From an uncultured Acetobacteraceae bacterium (lineage in GTDB: Bacteria > Pseudomonadota > Alphaproteobacteria > Acetobacterales > Acetobacteraceae), in contig CAIXEA010000133.1 of assembly GCA_903918315.1 (NCBI GenBank), forward strand, positions 1 to 64,000: 64,000 bases of DNA, given 5' to 3'. Made by a program: the position numbers and the translations under genes. The notes beneath the pieces are model-generated. The model was given only the letters and a program-made list of their open reading frames with translations. It ran no database searches and was not told the origin of the DNA. Positions within the stretch are counted from its first letter, which is position 1; the number at the start of each line of letters is the position of its first letter. This document shows positions 54,203 through 60,246 of the stretch, piece after piece.

Positions 54203-56281
54203 TCAGGAACCTGCGGGGAACATCCCGCCGGTTTCCGGCAAGCCGGCGCGGCGGAGTCCCTCCGCATAATGGGATCGGTCCTCTTGCAGCATCAACGGCG
54301 CCCGGTCGAGGGCCGCGGCGATCGAAAAGCCCGCTTCCAGCCTCATGAGCCGTTCACGAACCTCGGCCGCCTCCTGCTCGCGGCCTAGATGCCCCAATGC
54401 AGCCAGATAGAGTTTGACCGACGACGAAAAGCCCGGATTGAGTTCGACTGAACGACGACCATATTCAACGACTTTCTCGTGATTTCCAGTCAGCAGATAC
54501 GGCACCATCATAGCCATATCGAAGAAAAACGAGTGCGGATCGGAGGGTGACATGCGGCTCGCTTGCCGGACCCGGATCAGCCCATCATCGTGCTGTCCCA
54601 GGTAGGACAATGACAGTCCGGAAAAACACCACGCCAAAGCCAGATTGGAATTCAGTGCGATCGCCCGGTCGTGCAAGGCGCAGGCCTCACGCGGCCGTTT
54701 ACCGAGATAGCCACGCACATGTCCGGCCAAGGTCAGCGCGCGGGCATCCCCCGGATCGAGTGTGACAGCCCGTTCGGCCAGAAAACTCCCTCGCCGCACC
54801 GAAGCGGCCGGGTCATCTGTCCATCCCTGTCCGACCAAAAACAGATGCCAATACGCGTACCAGGCGTAAGCGGACGAACAGGACGGGTCGAGCACGAGGG
54901 CCTCTTCGAGGATCGCGCCAGCAGCGTGAAACCCGCCACGATCGAGCCGGTAAATCGCCGGCACGGCCCTCAGCACCAGGTCCTGCGGCGACAGAGTGCC
55001 TCCGGCCGAGACCCTCATGGCCCCACGCTCTCCCTCCCGGACGAGCAGCTCCGGGTCGATCTGCGCGACGATCTCAGCGGCAAGATCGTCCTGTAGGGTC
55101 AATGTATCGGCGACCTCCCGATCGAATCGCCGCGCCCAAATCACCTCTCCTCCTGAACGCATGTCGACGATGCGAACCAGGATTCGCACCAACGAGCCAC
55201 CGCGCTGCAACGTGCCGTCCAACACAAAATCGACGCCCATACCATCCCATGGAACCAGTCGATCCGGCCCGTTCCCCGCTATCGCCGAGAGCGAACTGCC
55301 CGAGACGCAGGATATCCAGCGGAAACGCGCCAAGGAGGTCGTAATTTCTTCCGCCAACCCCAGCGCGAGTCCGTCCGGCTGGCCTGGGCGATCCGGATCC
55401 ATCGATCTGAGCGGCAGAATGCCCATGCGCACCCCGGAACGCGGGACCGGTACCGCGATGCTGGCCAACGGCAAGGATTGCGTTTCGGGTTCGGCGACAG
55501 GCAGCGGCGCGACACCTTCGATGCGTGCCAGGAGATCGGTGGTTTCCCTGGAAGGCCCTGACAGGCCGCGTTCGATCAAAGCAGAACGACACCGCTCATA
55601 GGCAACGCGTGCGGCCGGACGATCGCCATTATCGACATGGCAGCGAATGATTGCCCGCCAGGCCGCTTCATAGCCCCCATCGATCTCGAGCAGTTGTTCG
55701 GCCGCCGCCACCTTGCCCGGCAGAGTCAGTTCTGTTTCGAGGAACCCTTCGCCGATGGCCAGAACAGTGCGTTTCAAACGCGCCCTCTCATCGGTGAGCC
55801 AACGATCAAACGCGGGATCCAGCCCGTCCAGATCTTCCAGCAGCGTGCTGCGAAAGAGCGCCAGGGTCGCCAGGTCCGCCGACCCGGGCTGGGCCAGGCT
55901 CAGGGCGTCGACCACAAGGCCCTCGCCCTTTAACTGAATGTGATGCCGCTCCGCGTTCAGCAGATGCCCCCATTCCACACCCAATGCGTCCTGTAATTCG
56001 TGCACGGATTGCCGCAGGGAGGCACGCGCTTGTTCGTTTTGCCGTTGGCTCCACAGCAACGCGGTCAACGTTAAGCGCAAGACCGGCCGAGGCGACGCCA
56101 GGGCCAGAACAGCGAGAATGGCGCGGGTCTTACGGCCGCGGGGCAGGGAGACCTGGCCGAGAGGCTCATCGATGCCCATCGAGCCCAATAAGCGCAACTT
56201 CAGGATGGGATGCACAGTCCCATTTTGCTTCGTTCTGCCATTGAATACTGGTCGGACCAGAACCCAATTCCCGTCGTGCAT
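54203..56281 (-). CDS. SARP/BTAD-like transcriptional regulator with TolB-like and TPR domains
   Basis: The 692-residue protein starts at the ATG at 56281 (a TTG at 56296 is possible). It has an N-terminal winged-helix DNA-binding domain (LRLLGSMGI...RKTRAILAVLAL), a BTAD helical domain (about 100-250), a TolB-like alpha/beta domain (MGILPLRSMD...FVLDGTLQR) and C-terminal TPR repeats. This is the layout of HilA/CadC-adjacent SARP regulators and of some cyclase-linked regulators. No output enzyme domain is seen. It lies upstream of aapJ on the same strand and is divergent from the yeiH-like gene, which are its likeliest targets. Confidence 0.85.
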   Translation of the reverse strand: MHDGNWVLVRPVFNGRTKQNGTVHPILKLRLLGSMGIDEPLGQVSLPRGRKTRAILAVLALASPRPVLRLTLTALLWSQRQNEQARASLRQSVHELQDALGVEWGHLLNAERHHIQLKGEGLVVDALSLAQPGSADLATLALFRSTLLEDLDGLDPAFDRWLTDERARLKRTVLAIGEGFLETELTLPGKVAAAEQLLEIDGGYEAAWRAIIRCHVDNGDRPAARVAYERCRSALIERGLSGPSRETTDLLARIEGVAPLPVAEPETQSLPLASIAVPVPRSGVRMGILPLRSMDPDRPGQPDGLALGLAEEITTSLARFRWISCVSGSSLSAIAGNGPDRLVPWDGMGVDFVLDGTLQRGGSLVRILVRIVDMRSGGEVIWARRFDREVADTLTLQDDLAAEIVAQIDPELLVREGERGAMRVSAGGTLSPQDLVLRAVPAIYRLDRGGFHAAGAILEEALVLDPSCSSAYAWYAYWHLFLVGQGWTDDPAASVRRGSFLAERAVTLDPGDARALTLAGHVRGYLGKRPREACALHDRAIALNSNLALAWCFSGLSLSYLGQHDDGLIRVRQASRMSPSDPHSFFFDMAMMVPYLLTGNHEKVVEYGRRSVELNPGFSSSVKLYLAALGHLGREQEAAEVRERLMRLEAGFSIAAALDRAPLMLQEDRSHYAEGLRRAGLPETGGMFPAGS

Positions 56282-56530
56282 CCCGGGCGCCGCCAATCGT
56301 CGCCCGACTGAATCGCGAATGTTACCGAGGTTACATACTACTGTAGAGAAATCAACCCTTACGTATATATATTTATATCAAAAAATCAAAAAATATTTCT
56401 CCCTCCCGCCACGCGAGAACCCACGCGCGGCGCGCAAGCCCGCAGGGGAGGATTTTCTCATTCAACCGCAGGGTAGGGACAAATCATCCATTCCTGGGCA
56501 TACTCCGACGGATTCGAGGGGGAGGACAGC

Positions 56531-57586
56531 ATGGCAGCATCCGGAGAGGCAGGCACAACGGCACGCGCACCCGCGTCACAGTCCGCGGGACTGAGACTAG
56601 GGCTGGGCATTGGCCTGTGCGTTTTGATCGCTGTCACGGCCCTGGCCGCCGGCACGAAGGTGCCCCTGATTGGCGCACCGCTCATCGCCATTGCTCTGGG
56701 CGTCATTATCACCAATGGCCTGCGTGGCCCCCTGCGAATCAACACGTTACGGATCGGCGAGGTCAGTAAATACGCGTTGCGAGGCGGCATCATCGTCCTG
56801 GGTGCCAGCCTGGATATCAGCGATATCGTTGACACAGGGTGGCATTCTCTGCCGCTGCTGCTGATTACGATGGCGGCAGGGTTGGTGTGCGCCCTCGGGG
56901 TCGGGAAAGCGATGGGGATCGACTGGCGGATGCGATGCCTCATCGGCATGGGAACCACCATTTGCGGCGCCTCCGCTATCGCCGCCCTGGCACCGGTCAT
57001 CCGCGCGAAGGCAGAAGAGATCGCCTACGCGGTCACGGTCATCTTCTTTTTCAATATGGTCGCGGTATTCCTCTTCCCCGCTCTGGGCCACCTCATGGGG
57101 CTGAGTGACGCGGGATTCGGCCTATGGGCCGGCACGGCGGTGAATGATACGTCGGCGGTGGTTGCGGCGGGGTTTGCCTATAGTCAAGATGCTGGTACCG
57201 CCGCGACGATCGTCAAACTGACCCGGACAACCCTGATTATCCCGCTGGTCATTGGGTTCGGCCTGGCGATGCCGTGGCTTGACCCAAGTGACACCAGCAA
57301 AAGCGCATCACTCGGCAAGCGCGTTTATGACGCGACCCCCCTGTTCATCGTCGCGTTCCTGGCCGCAGCGGTCCTGAAATCCCTGGGCGTGTTCGGCTCA
57401 TACGGGGGAGACATTCAAATGGTCGGGCGTTGGATCCTTGTGATCGCTCTCGCCGCCGTGGGGTTGCAGGGACATTGGCGCGCATTCGTGGGCGCGGGCG
57501 CAAAACCGCTCGTTCTCGGCTTTCTGACATGGCTCGCGGTCGCCGGAACGAGCCTGTTCATCCAATCCTGGACACACATGCTGTAA
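56531..57586 (+). CDS. YeiH-family putative sulfate exporter
   Basis: The 351-residue polytopic protein belongs to the YeiH/YadS family of putative sulfate exporters, with about ten helices. Landmarks are APLIAIALGVIITN, IIVLGASLDISDI, the central GMGTTICGASAIAALAPVI and GLWAGTAVNDTSAVVAAGFAYS. In characterised relatives the family exports sulfate or related anions. A GGAGGA ribosome site precedes the start. The 234-bp divergent gap before it has an AT-rich core (TACGTATATATATTTATATC) where a regulator could bind. Confidence 0.9.
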   Translation: MAASGEAGTTARAPASQSAGLRLGLGIGLCVLIAVTALAAGTKVPLIGAPLIAIALGVIITNGLRGPLRINTLRIGEVSKYALRGGIIVLGASLDISDIVDTGWHSLPLLLITMAAGLVCALGVGKAMGIDWRMRCLIGMGTTICGASAIAALAPVIRAKAEEIAYAVTVIFFFNMVAVFLFPALGHLMGLSDAGFGLWAGTAVNDTSAVVAAGFAYSQDAGTAATIVKLTRTTLIIPLVIGFGLAMPWLDPSDTSKSASLGKRVYDATPLFIVAFLAAAVLKSLGVFGSYGGDIQMVGRWILVIALAAVGLQGHWRAFVGAGAKPLVLGFLTWLAVAGTSLFIQSWTHML

Positions 57587-57619
57587 GGAGTAATAAATCC
57601 TATTGAGGGTAGATTTTCC

Positions 57620-57649
57620 TTGACACACGATCCGCCCTCCGCCTAAAGC
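57620..57649 (+). promoter_or_regulatory. Candidate sigma-70-type promoter
   Basis: A consensus -35 box TTGACA (57620-57625) is separated by 18 bases from TAAAGC (57644-57649), a fair -10 box. It is well placed to drive the short terminated transcript that follows. Confidence 0.5.
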
Positions 57650-57650
57650 T

Positions 57651-57744
57651 GTTGTTGTCGACGGGATTGGTGCGTCTGAATTCCTCTTCGAACGCCAAAA
57701 TCCATAGAACAGGACGCTCCGGTATTCCGGGGCGTCCTTTTTTT
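57651..57744 (+). ncRNA. Candidate small RNA with an exposed UUCCUC loop and its own terminator
   Basis: About 90 bases lie between the candidate promoter and a strong intrinsic terminator, with no plausible ORF. The first hairpin pairs GCGT..GAA with TTC..ACGC and displays the loop TTCCTC, an anti-Shine-Dalgarno-like sequence common in alphaproteobacterial riboregulators. The second hairpin is the terminator. It could also be a leader or attenuator of the peptide gene 65 bp downstream. Confidence 0.45.
57712..57744 (+). terminator. Intrinsic terminator ahead of the peptide gene
   Basis: Arms GGACGCTCCGG and CCGGGGCGTCC (11 bp with one G-U pair) enclose the loop TATT and are followed by seven T. 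It is among the strongest terminators in the window. Confidence 0.9.
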
Positions 57745-57808
57745 GTGCGTATTTTTTGGCGCTCGGACACCGCTCGATGACACATACAGAACTCATCAGG
57801 AGATTTTC

Positions 57809-57952
57809 ATGAGCAAGACTTCGACCTACGACAGCGGCCGCGTGATCATCGGTGGTGGCATTCGCTTGCCGGCTGCCAAGCCCGTTGCCACGTCGGACGC
57901 CGGCACCGTGATCCTCGGCGGTGGCATCCGCCTGCCGGCCGTGCGCGGCTGA
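57809..57952 (+). CDS. Two-repeat small peptide, candidate precursor peptide
   Basis: The 47-residue product is made almost entirely of two copies of one unit: DSGRVIIGGGIRLPAAKP (residues 8-25) and DAGTVILGGGIRLPAVRG (30-47), with a period of 22. The ATG at 57809 has AGGAG 6 bases upstream; an earlier in-frame ATG (57743) falls inside the terminator and is unlikely. In the GGGIRLPA part the two DNA copies differ at four positions, all silent, so the peptide sequence itself is under selection. It has no signal peptide, no Cys and no hydrophobic helix. A 10-bp GC hairpin and a DUF6065-like gene follow. I recognise no described family; a modified peptide precursor is an inference. Confidence 0.75.
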   Translation: MSKTSTYDSGRVIIGGGIRLPAAKPVATSDAGTVILGGGIRLPAVRG

Positions 57953-57959
57953 ACCAGTA

Positions 57960-57984
57960 CCCGCGGGCCTCTTTGGCCCGCGGG
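57960..57984 (+). promoter_or_regulatory. Perfect GC hairpin between the peptide gene and its neighbour
   Basis: Ten-bp arms CCCGCGGGCC/GGCCCGCGGG enclose the loop TCTTT, 8 bases after the peptide stop codon. There is no T-run, so it probably stabilises the peptide mRNA or partly ends transcription. Such hairpins are common behind precursor-peptide genes. Confidence 0.7.
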
Positions 57985-58037
57985 ATCGCTGTCACCCACC
58001 TGGAAGGTCCATTATCGCAAGCTGAGGATACACAAGC

Positions 58038-58826
58038 ATGACGCTCGATGCCCGTCCCAGTGTCCGGTTCTTTCAACTGATCGATCAGGCAAGACCACCA
58101 CAAATCGCTGAGCGCTCGGCACTCGGCACCCTGCCCACGCGCGCCTTCCGATATTGTGAGGCCGTTACCAGCGCGACCGCCTTTGGCTGGTGGCTATTCC
58201 CCCCCATGGACTTACAGTTGATATGGGATGGCAGCGATATTTTCTGGCATTATGCCGGTGCCGAGGATTGGCTCAAGTTGATGCCATCCGCGCAATTTCC
58301 AGGTTTTGTTGATAGGTTCGACGCCCATGCGCCAACGCCCAACAAAGGGTTTTCGCCCCCTTTTCTAACCGCGCTCCCTGAGCCCGGCACCTTGCAAATC
58401 TGGACCGGTCTGATCGCGCGCACTGCGCCTGACTGGCATCTGCTGCTGCGCGCTCCGGCGAATTTACCGTCCCCGGGCGGGTTCGTTCACTATGAAGGGA
58501 TCGTGGCAACAGACCGCTGGTTTGGTCCATTATTCATCAACCTGCGCTTTACCCGCTCCCACACACCAATCCGGTTACGAGCGGATTATCCACTGATTCT
58601 GGCGCAGCCCGTCCGACGTCATCATTACGCCTCAGAGACGCTGGCTTCGATGACCGTCGCCGGCGGATTAAGCAGCATGGCCGATACCGATTGGGACGAC
58701 TATCGAACAACCATCGTTGAACCCAATCTGGATCATGACCGCCCTTACGGGGCCTACGCGGTTGCCGCACGCAAGCGGCGGCAGTGTCCGGTCCATGCTT
58801 TCAGCGAATCAACCCGGAATCAGTGA
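58038..58826 (+). CDS. DUF6065-like protein linked to the small peptide
   Basis: The 262-residue soluble protein has no signal peptide. It resembles DUF6065 proteins: an Arg/Phe-rich start (PSVRFFQLIDQARPP), an aromatic segment (TAFGWWLFPPMDLQLIWDG), KGFSPPFLTALPEPGTLQIWTG, and a RWFGPLFINLRFTRSHTPIRLRADYPL segment; a few His (RRHHY) and Trp/Asp residues near the C-terminus could bind a cofactor. The start has TGAGGA upstream. Its function is unknown. It is 85 bp behind the peptide gene and its stop overlaps the convergent receiver-like gene by 18 bp. Confidence 0.75.
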   Translation: MTLDARPSVRFFQLIDQARPPQIAERSALGTLPTRAFRYCEAVTSATAFGWWLFPPMDLQLIWDGSDIFWHYAGAEDWLKLMPSAQFPGFVDRFDAHAPTPNKGFSPPFLTALPEPGTLQIWTGLIARTAPDWHLLLRAPANLPSPGGFVHYEGIVATDRWFGPLFINLRFTRSHTPIRLRADYPLILAQPVRRHHYASETLASMTVAGGLSSMADTDWDDYRTTIVEPNLDHDRPYGAYAVAARKRRQCPVHAFSESTRNQ

Positions 58827-59288
58827 CAGGCAACGGCCGAGGCGGCCGGCATGGGCCAAAAACTCCACGATACCTCCTGGGTCTGGCAGACAGGCCGTCT
58901 TGGTGACCCTGGTAAGTCCCCATAACTCTTCCACCGCCTCCGCCGCGCCGATCTGCGCCTGGTCGTGTCCTGTTAACAACATGATGGGCAATCCGGGATC
59001 ATAGGCCGCCACGACCATCATCACATGGCATCCGTCCTGCCCCTCCCCATCCAGTTCCGCGACCACGGCCATCGGGCGATGGAGGTCCAGGATCGGGCCA
59101 AGATCGCCCGTCGTTGGCACTTGCAGGAAATCCACATCCAGAAAATCCGCGACGCACTTCATCGACGACCCGACGGAGAAATCATCACTGACCACGACAA
59201 TGGTCGGATAACAGCTGGCCATCGCGCTTTGCAGGGCATCGACCTGCGGCAACAATGATGGGATGTATACCGTGTTCATATGCGTCAT
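58809..59288 (-). CDS. Receiver-like domain protein with Glu at the phosphoacceptor position
   Basis: The 159-residue protein has the fold pattern of a stand-alone response-regulator receiver: VVVSDDFSVG (D35, D36), a beta strand ending AVVAELDGEGQDG, LPIMLLTGHD and a Lys in RVTKTACLPDP. By alignment with LLDLRMPGMDG-type sequences the phosphoacceptor site is E78 instead of Asp, although D80 lies nearby. It may therefore be locked in one state. No output domain is present. The gene converges on the DUF6065-like gene with an 18-bp overlap, so the two may affect each other's expression. Confidence 0.6.
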   Translation of the reverse strand: MTHMNTVYIPSLLPQVDALQSAMASCYPTIVVVSDDFSVGSSMKCVADFLDVDFLQVPTTGDLGPILDLHRPMAVVAELDGEGQDGCHVMMVVAAYDPGLPIMLLTGHDQAQIGAAEAVEELWGLTRVTKTACLPDPGGIVEFLAHAGRLGRCLSLIPG

Positions 59289-59499
59289 AATAACCTCTTA
59301 TGGCTTTGGTTTGTATCTGTGACAGGACTGATTGTGAACTCAACCACGTCACGGCCAAACCCCAGTTACTGTTAGTACATAAAGCGATTCCGTAATTATC
59401 GCGTGAATGTCCGTTAATTTCGGCGCTTCGGTTTAAGGTGAAGACTGGCCCCCCGTGGCCATGGCTGGCACACTGGCGATCAGCAGAAGGAAAATCCCC

Positions 59500-60246
59500 A
59501 TGGCCAGCCGCCCCATTCCAGCCGCCATCTCCATGCAAGATAAGCGCGTCCTCGTGACCGGCGCCGCCAGCGGAATCGGCCGCGCCACGGCGCTCGTCCT
59601 GGCGGAACTCGGCGCCGAACTGGTCCTGAGCGACCGATCCGACCTGACCGATACCGTGGATGAGGCCCAGGCACGCGGGGCGATCTGCACGGTCGCGCAA
59701 GGCGACCTGACCGATGACGCATTTCTGAACAGCCTGTTTACGGGGGAGCGCCTGCATGCCGTCGCCCACTGCGCCGGCATTTTGATCGGCCGCCCTTGGC
59801 AGGACGATACCGCCTGGCACGAACGGTTCCACCGCATGATGGATGTCAATGTCCGGGTGCCCCTACAAATCGCCCATGCAGCGACCGAACATATGGCCGC
59901 GCATGGCGGCGGCCATATCGTGCTGGTGGGATCGGTTGCCGGCAAGACCGGTGGCACGTCGCTGAGCACGCCACCCGACTATTCCGCCTCCAAGGGGGCC
60001 GTGCACGCGCTGGTGAAATGGATGTCGCGCAACGCCGTTGGCCGAGGCGTCATGGTCAACGCGGTCGCTCCCGGCCCGGTGCAAACCGCGATGACCCGAA
60101 ATTCAAACATGGGGCCAACCTTGCCACTCCGCCGTATGGGTCATGCGGAGGAACTCGCCTGGCCGATCGCGTTCCTGTGCTCATCGGCGGCCAGTTATAT
60201 GTCAGGGGCGATTCTCGATGTGAACGGCGGCGCGTTCGTCGGCTGA
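59500..60246 (+). CDS. Short-chain dehydrogenase/reductase (SDR)
   Basis: The 248-residue product is a classical SDR oxidoreductase. It shows the NAD(P)-binding TGAASGIG, the catalytic Ser in VGSVAGKTGG, YSASK with catalytic Tyr and Lys, and the APGPVQTAMT segment. The start at 59500 follows AGAAGGAAAA; an internal ATG at 59533 (MQDKRVLVTG) is an alternative that removes a possibly extra N-terminal segment. Its stop overlaps the DUF429 gene start by one base. The substrate is unknown. Confidence 0.93.
   Translation: MASRPIPAAISMQDKRVLVTGAASGIGRATALVLAELGAELVLSDRSDLTDTVDEAQARGAICTVAQGDLTDDAFLNSLFTGERLHAVAHCAGILIGRPWQDDTAWHERFHRMMDVNVRVPLQIAHAATEHMAAHGGGHIVLVGSVAGKTGGTSLSTPPDYSASKGAVHALVKWMSRNAVGRGVMVNAVAPGPVQTAMTRNSNMGPTLPLRRMGHAEELAWPIAFLCSSAASYMSGAILDVNGGAFVG

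Follow-up and report, generated by a model that had tools for sequence, protein, structure and literature searches.

A repeat-bearing peptide gene and a DUF6065-family gene form a recurrent module in Acetobacteraceae and other Pseudomonadota

A short gene encoding a peptide of repeated units, followed on the same strand by a gene for a DUF6065-family protein, is, by genome comparison, a real, recurrent and widespread module and, within the searches made, apparently an undescribed one. We examined the pair in a window of 64,000 nucleotides from an uncultured Acetobacteraceae bacterium, in which the following features were located:

54206..56296, minus strand: BTAD/TPR regulator, divergent from the pair and a probable third member (BTAD, 38.8 bits)
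56531..57586, plus strand: YeiH-type transporter, encoded between the regulator and peptide genes (PF03601, 4.1e-65)
57711..57738, plus strand: intrinsic-terminator-like site, 12 pairs (9 of them G-C), then TTTTTTG; identified by consensus only
57798..57802, plus strand: AGGAG, Shine-Dalgarno-like, 6 nt before the ATG of the peptide ORF; read from the sequence
57809..57952, plus strand: repeat-peptide gene, 47 aa with two repeats, translation MSKTSTYDSGRVIIGGGIRLPAAKPVATSDAGTVILGGGIRLPAVRG
57830..57874, plus strand: repeat copy 1, DSGRVIIGGGIRLPA; read from the sequence
57896..57940, plus strand: repeat copy 2, DAGTVILGGGIRLPA; read from the sequence
57960..57984, plus strand: perfect 10-bp GC hairpin in the gap between peptide and DUF6065 genes, CCCGCGGGCC-TCTTT-GGCCCGCGGG
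58038..58826, plus strand: DUF6065-family protein, 262 aa, with a predicted dUTPase-like fold (PF19541, 43.9 bits)

The 47-residue ORF, its ribosome site, the two 15-residue repeats with a period of 22 aa, the hairpin and the DUF6065 gene all lie where an earlier note on this DNA had placed them. That note contained neither the divergent regulator nor the range of repeat copy number (1–18) nor the co-inheritance of repeat tail and DUF6065 described below.

Recurrence of the pair across genomes

A DUF6065 query of one-per-species genomes returned 30 loci, from which we built a profile that was then run on 200 genomes of the window's family and 289 of its class. Window-type DUF6065 was found in 67 of the 200 sampled family genomes, nearly always behind a repeat peptide, and in 6 of the 289 class genomes, with the window's own genome counted in both sets and one of the six (G644) being a weak match. 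In total, 123 loci were assembled (30 initial, 35 from the family and class profile output and 58 fetched, with 7 of the 95 family rows left out), and removal of 5 duplicates and of 2 loci with less than 180 nt upstream left 116 distinct loci.

The earlier note had staked its proposal on motif and DUF6065 occurring together in other genomes, and they do so, with controls near zero. Scoring as positive any locus with a same-strand ORF that carries the repeat motif and ends ≤450 nt upstream of DUF6065, a regular expression identified 101 of the 116 loci (window included), which is an in-sample count because these loci, many of them related to each other, had also served to define the motif. The same scan was positive in 0 of 116 reverse complements, 0–2 of 116 loci across ten codon-shuffled sets and 12 of 1,000 random 1.5-kb pieces of the window; upstream of canonical DUF6065 genes it gave 1 match in 27, a chance-like one inside a long gene. 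Inspection by eye lowered and then raised the count: the matches in L037 and L196 look like chance, leaving 99 positive loci, and 7 of the 15 loci negative by regular expression show a repeat or motif (L034, L051, L053, L054, L118, L159 and L194), giving 106. In L032, L060, L110, L124, L129, L139 (a weak match), L173 and L183, the repeat was not, or not clearly, seen. Upstream of DUF6065 in L196 (G156 C64), a Cys-containing repeat, GDGGCIYRFG, was seen by eye in place of the usual motif, and the chance-like regular-expression match lies in a different frame from it.

Searching from the peptide side gave a concordant picture. The 47 residues alone matched 27 of the 200 family genomes at E ≤ 0.01 (own genome included), and in 20 of these a window-type DUF6065 ORF lies within 1.5 kb of the match. 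Counted per genome, window-type DUF6065 is present in 22 of the 27 peptide-matched genomes (one of which, G064, has its match at a chance-like place) versus 45 of the 173 others (Fisher 4.8e-8). Two genomes of one genus, G083 (L009) and G191 (L008), carry clear repeats with the contig ending right behind them, and no DUF6065 was found in either genome. G014 has the peptide beside a BTAD gene (L005) and DUF6065 on another contig with no peptide upstream (L108); with 7% contamination in this genome, a split module is no more than hinted at. For G064, G132, G175 and G183, the fetched locus held no repeat motif or a very long ORF. That peptide and DUF6065 act together is well supported by these genomic associations.

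The repeats also extend beyond the family. They were found in f16 (L138), f123 (L135–L137), Bradyrhizobium (L054) and the Betaproteobacteria (L051, L053, L056 and L057). In family f8, one of two loci has them: three repeats (KVRIGTMSPAF), missed by the regular expression, were read by eye in L204 and none was seen in L203. On a plasmid of Rhizobium sp. SRDI969 (L198:5571–7877), an annotated hypothetical protein with three repeats (DxGxVHIANKSPxF) is encoded 16 nt before a DUF6065 family protein, whose gene overlaps one for an MFS transporter. This transporter could move the product of the pair. We rejected it as a member of the module, as among the loci compared it was seen in Rhizobium alone, with a homologue in no other locus.

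A full-text literature search for DUF6065, its coverage leaving most subscription journals outside, found no paper, and among the papers listed by further searches there was no description of the peptide/DUF6065 pair.

Repeats, hairpin and joint inheritance

The repeat unit follows the consensus D-[AST]-G-[KR]-[VI]-R-[LIF]-G-[GA]-x-x-[RP]-x-[LP]. In a set of 102 entries, which counts four duplicates and the chance-like L196, G8 is present in 102, G3 in 88 and R6 in 87; D is present by construction and the regular expression allowed G or A at G8 and left R6 free. Both window copies carry Ile at position 6. By regular expression, which misses degenerate copies, the 101 positive loci hold one copy in 24 cases, two in 28, three in 15, four in 8 and 5–18 in 26; four of the 24 single-repeat loci are undercounted or masked and two are chance-like, so that about 18 look truly single. 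N-termini of the peptides are short and vary between groups, with no conserved leader and no signal sequence seen by eye. The peptide has no match in Pfam and a single NCBIfam match far below the cut-off, and is yet to have a family in either.

Selection on the peptide had been proposed from the GGGIRLPA stretch, in which the four DNA differences between the window copies (GGT/GGC, ATT/ATC, TTG/CTG and GCT/GCC) are indeed all silent. Over the 14-residue unit counted from its Asp, the same two copies differ by 3 silent and 5 replacement changes, so by themselves they are weak evidence of selection. Consecutive repeats at 71 loci, by contrast, differ by 629 silent and 436 replacement changes against an expected 311 and 754 (ratio 0.29), in a count that takes four loci twice as duplicates, uses related copies within a locus and does not model mutation bias. 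Judged by this ratio, the repeats are under coding selection, that is, selected at the protein level; the strength of the evidence comes from the other loci and not from the window's two copies. A further argument of the earlier note, built on the absence of Cys, Ser and Thr, holds for GGGIRLPA only, as tails at other loci contain Ser, Thr or Cys (for example, GGMSPSLPT and GAGCRTPK).

The variable tail of the repeat follows the phylogeny of its DUF6065 partner in these alignments. With tail type defined as P, R/K or other at position 12, a quick DUF6065 tree of 94 labelled rows (39 of 110 inner branches unresolved) required 13 changes of type, compared with a mean of 42.5 and a minimum of 37 in 200 shuffles. 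Where one genome holds paralogous pairs (L117 and L142 in G099; L114 and L151 in G199), different tails go with different DUF6065 clades, and by this pattern each pair keeps its own partner. Joint inheritance is enough to explain the match between tail and tree. We also considered a direct contact between repeat Arg6 and Glu157 of DUF6065, as the window has lost both, and dropped it: covariation is not general, with nine other loci having V, H, L or S at position 6 keeping Glu157 and two with Asp157 keeping Arg6.

The 91-nt gap that holds the window's hairpin folds with a z-score of −2.44 (6 of 200 shuffles fold as well), and no T run follows the stem. Perfect stems scoring above the second-highest of 30 mononucleotide shuffles, a threshold that about 3–7% pass by chance, were found in the corresponding gap of 54 of 101 entries (window and four duplicates included), while 47 failed. 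Those that pass are mostly 8–16 bp, and their sequences differ between groups. The terminator-like site at 57711–57738, one of 2 in a scan for which 1.3 were expected, separates the pair from the transporter gene upstream; from its position, the peptide and DUF6065 genes may be transcribed as a unit of their own, though this is no more than a suggestion. Rfam returned nothing useful over 56200–59500.

The DUF6065 protein and its neighbourhood

The window's DUF6065 protein lies above the PF19541 cut-off (26.6 bits), its only family match in Pfam and NCBIfam, and matches no known RiPP enzyme family there. Window-type and canonical DUF6065 align with an hhalign probability of 98.3. A structure predicted from 27 sequences (pLDDT 83.8, pTM 0.77; residues 38–46, including the invariant Cys40, below 50) gave 45 Foldseek matches in the PDB at E ≤ 1e-3, nearly all titled dUTPase; for this predicted model, the best was the dUTPase 3ecy_A (E 2.7e-5; TM-score 0.75 by target and 0.36 by query). 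Against viral models, uncharacterised phage proteins came first (best E 3.3e-9), followed by dUTPases.

Sequence comparison with dUTPases stayed below significance. Using hhalign, DUF6065 against the family's own dUTPases gave a probability under 1% (E 0.08) and canonical DUF6065 gave no alignment, and the DUF6065 profile against PDB sequences gave no dUTPase and only two chance-level matches. The non-significant alignment puts in register the positions that we take to be dUTPase motifs 2 to 4, and in it the motif 2 Ser is replaced by Ala141 and the motif 3 catalytic Asp by Glu157 in 97% of 113 sequences (Ala in the window). The Gly-rich C-terminal motif 5 (GGFGSTG) was not seen in 27 aligned DUF6065 sequences. 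In the predicted structure, DUF6065 has a dUTPase fold from which the residues key to dUTPase are missing. From its sequence, dUTPase activity appears unlikely, because these residues are not kept and the same genome encodes a separate dUTPase (L096).

A different set of residues is conserved. Across 113 window-type and 19 canonical DUF6065 sequences, C40, A46, G50, G65 and W219 are invariant, and W63, N142, E157 and N168 nearly so. The window protein departs at six positions conserved in ≥90%: R13Q, R23I (codon 58104–58106), D25E (58110–58112), E157A (58506–58508), T174S and Q188L (58599–58601). The relative L031 keeps all four residues changed in the window by R23I, D25E, E157A and Q188L. 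Given E157A and the repeat Arg replaced by Ile, the window copy is atypical in sequence, and it may have changed specificity or lost function.

Upstream of the pair, a divergently oriented homologue of the regulator was found in 14 of 17 related loci with ≥2.4 kb of upstream sequence (15 of 18 counting the window). Seven of the 17 form one tight clade, and excluding them the figure is 7 of 10. Among the 95 loci with ≥1.2 kb upstream, the regulator was found in 48 and not found in 47, and as these flanks are short the 48 are a lower bound. Its TPR half stays while its N-terminal half varies, matching BTAD in L033 and L039; in L056 (above the cut-off) and L051 (slightly below it) the match is to a guanylate cyclase domain. 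Matches to TolB/FlgO-like domains are weak. PADLOC gave only a weak TPR match for the regulator (E 0.0017) and none for the peptide or DUF6065, and PHROGs and phage records yielded nothing useful for the locus.

The YeiH-type transporter gene is probably a passenger. It is absent from the gene clusters listed as common to many loci; a frame related to it lies upstream of the peptide in L034. Downstream, a receiver-domain-like protein is encoded at 58809–59288 on the minus strand, convergent with the DUF6065 gene and overlapping its 3′ end by 18 bases, with weak FleQ and Response_reg matches below the cut-off. No exporter or protease conserved beside the pair was found in the loci compared.

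Canonical DUF6065 genes (L061–L082 and L099–L104) have varied neighbours, including thioredoxin-like and LON-type genes (by eye) and an L,D-transpeptidase-like protein, and no repeat peptide. One canonical protein (L077/L098) is extended C-terminally by a PqqD domain (E 1.5e-8). In L098 (7199–13399), this fusion stands beside a second PqqD protein, an ABC exporter that has a membrane domain, a sub-cut-off HPr-kinase-like match and three short paralogous peptides starting, or nearly so, with MKKPYVPPMV; in gene content the cluster is RiPP-like. The PqqD-type extension was absent by eye from 12 plus two other canonical loci, the domain scan covering the fusion locus alone, and none of six window proteins scanned, peptide and DUF6065 included, has a PqqD match.

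Candidate functions and known systems

We infer a small, self-contained module consisting of a repeat peptide, a DUF6065 protein that would recognise each repeat and, often, a divergent sensor-regulator. DUF6065, as a repurposed dUTPase-fold protein, would bind the conserved D-x-G-x-V-x-L-G part of each repeat, which is predicted, with very low confidence, to be a β-hairpin, and would process or modify the variable tail. Each repeat would then combine its own recognition site with a core, as in a multi-core RiPP precursor that has no separate leader. The role proposed for the hairpin is to maintain more peptide than DUF6065, and either the peptide or the product may be what the regulator senses through its TPR half.

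Modification of the repeats by DUF6065 is the leading reading, to which we assign a probability of roughly 0.45, with an unmodified ligand as its main rival. The DUF6065–PqqD fusion, a single case, favours modification. The earlier note had proposed a RiPP-like layout, of which the pairing of the two genes is strongly supported. For its modifying enzyme, this fusion counts in favour; no conserved exporter or protease was found in the loci compared, no conserved leader was seen by eye, and the predicted fold is that of a dUTPase without its catalytic residues. The window's own departures, E157A and Ile in place of the repeat Arg, also tell against modification. In its fullest form, the proposal is that the dUTPase fold here carries a new class of peptide-modifying enzyme: DUF6065 would act through the conserved Cys40, Glu157 and Asn168 on every D-x-G-x-V-R-L-G unit of a multi-repeat precursor that has no leader, and would found an undescribed RiPP class across Acetobacteraceae and other Pseudomonadota. 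We advance this form tentatively.

A serious, if somewhat doubtful, alternative is that the peptide acts unmodified as a multivalent ligand, its repeats docking on a catalytically dead, possibly trimeric, DUF6065 scaffold, whereby the pair would build an assembly or DUF6065 would be controlled by occupancy. dUTPases are trimers, and the predicted fold without dUTPase motif residues, the spread from 1 to 18 copies, the lack of conserved processing genes in the loci compared and the loss of E157 in the window would all suit such a scaffold. So would the repeat itself, which keeps residues suited to turns and strands (D1, G3, V/I5 and G8): when a read-through chain of four repeats and DUF6065 was folded (mean pLDDT 63), the repeats appeared as β-hairpins at about 43. 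However, the loci that look single-repeat are not multivalent, Cys40, Glu157 and Asn168 are near-invariant, and one relative is fused to PqqD.

It is unlikely that the repeats are the precursor of an RRNPP-like pheromone that matures with DUF6065 and has the divergent regulator, through its TPR half, as its receptor. The frequency of that regulator in long-flank loci and the constancy of its TPR half, next to a variable BTAD or cyclase-like half, fit this idea. Against it, no signal peptide was seen by eye and no conserved exporter was found, the tight clade makes up much of the long-flank sample, many short-flank loci yielded no regulator, and TPR regulators of this type are common in these bacteria. 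Finally, chance or artefact, in which the ORF would be no gene at all or shared ancestry alone would account for its adjacency to DUF6065, might be entertained from the window's mere two copies, the relatedness of many loci and a regular expression made from them, but is very improbable given near-zero scan controls, coding selection on the repeats, recurrence across several families and classes and the annotated three-repeat protein of Rhizobium.

If DUF6065 does modify the peptide, it would bring, as far as we are aware, a new enzyme fold to peptide chemistry; if it does not, the peptide would be a new kind of ligand for a dUTPase-like protein.

Compared with known systems, the RRNPP-type pairs (Rgg/SHP and RaS-RiPPs) likewise place a small peptide gene near a TPR-repeat regulator, whereas here the regulator has a BTAD or cyclase-like N-terminal half, the hosts are Gram-negative and the peptide has no signal sequence by eye. 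The trimeric dUTPases, with their β-clip fold, share the predicted fold of DUF6065 and the register of motifs 2 to 4, but DUF6065 is without the motif 2 Ser, the motif 3 Asp and the C-terminal GGFGSTG, and sequence similarity is not significant. We know of no RiPP enzyme with a dUTPase-type fold. The window pair differs from RiPP systems in that neither Pfam nor NCBIfam matched it to a known family of RiPP enzymes or precursors, and in having no conserved leader (by eye), protease or exporter found. It resembles multi-core RiPP systems in placing a small gene with repeats ahead of a single protein gene, in the hairpin in the gap and the regulator nearby, in repeats that are similar within a genome with tails that vary between genomes, and in the fusion of one canonical DUF6065 to the RiPP-recognition domain PqqD. 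Canonical PF19541 proteins (for example, the Caulobacter match) are, like the window type, over the family cut-off and share Cys40, Gly50, Trp63, Asn142, Glu157, Asn168 and Trp219 with it, while window-type proteins make up a subfamily of their own, preceded by a repeat peptide.
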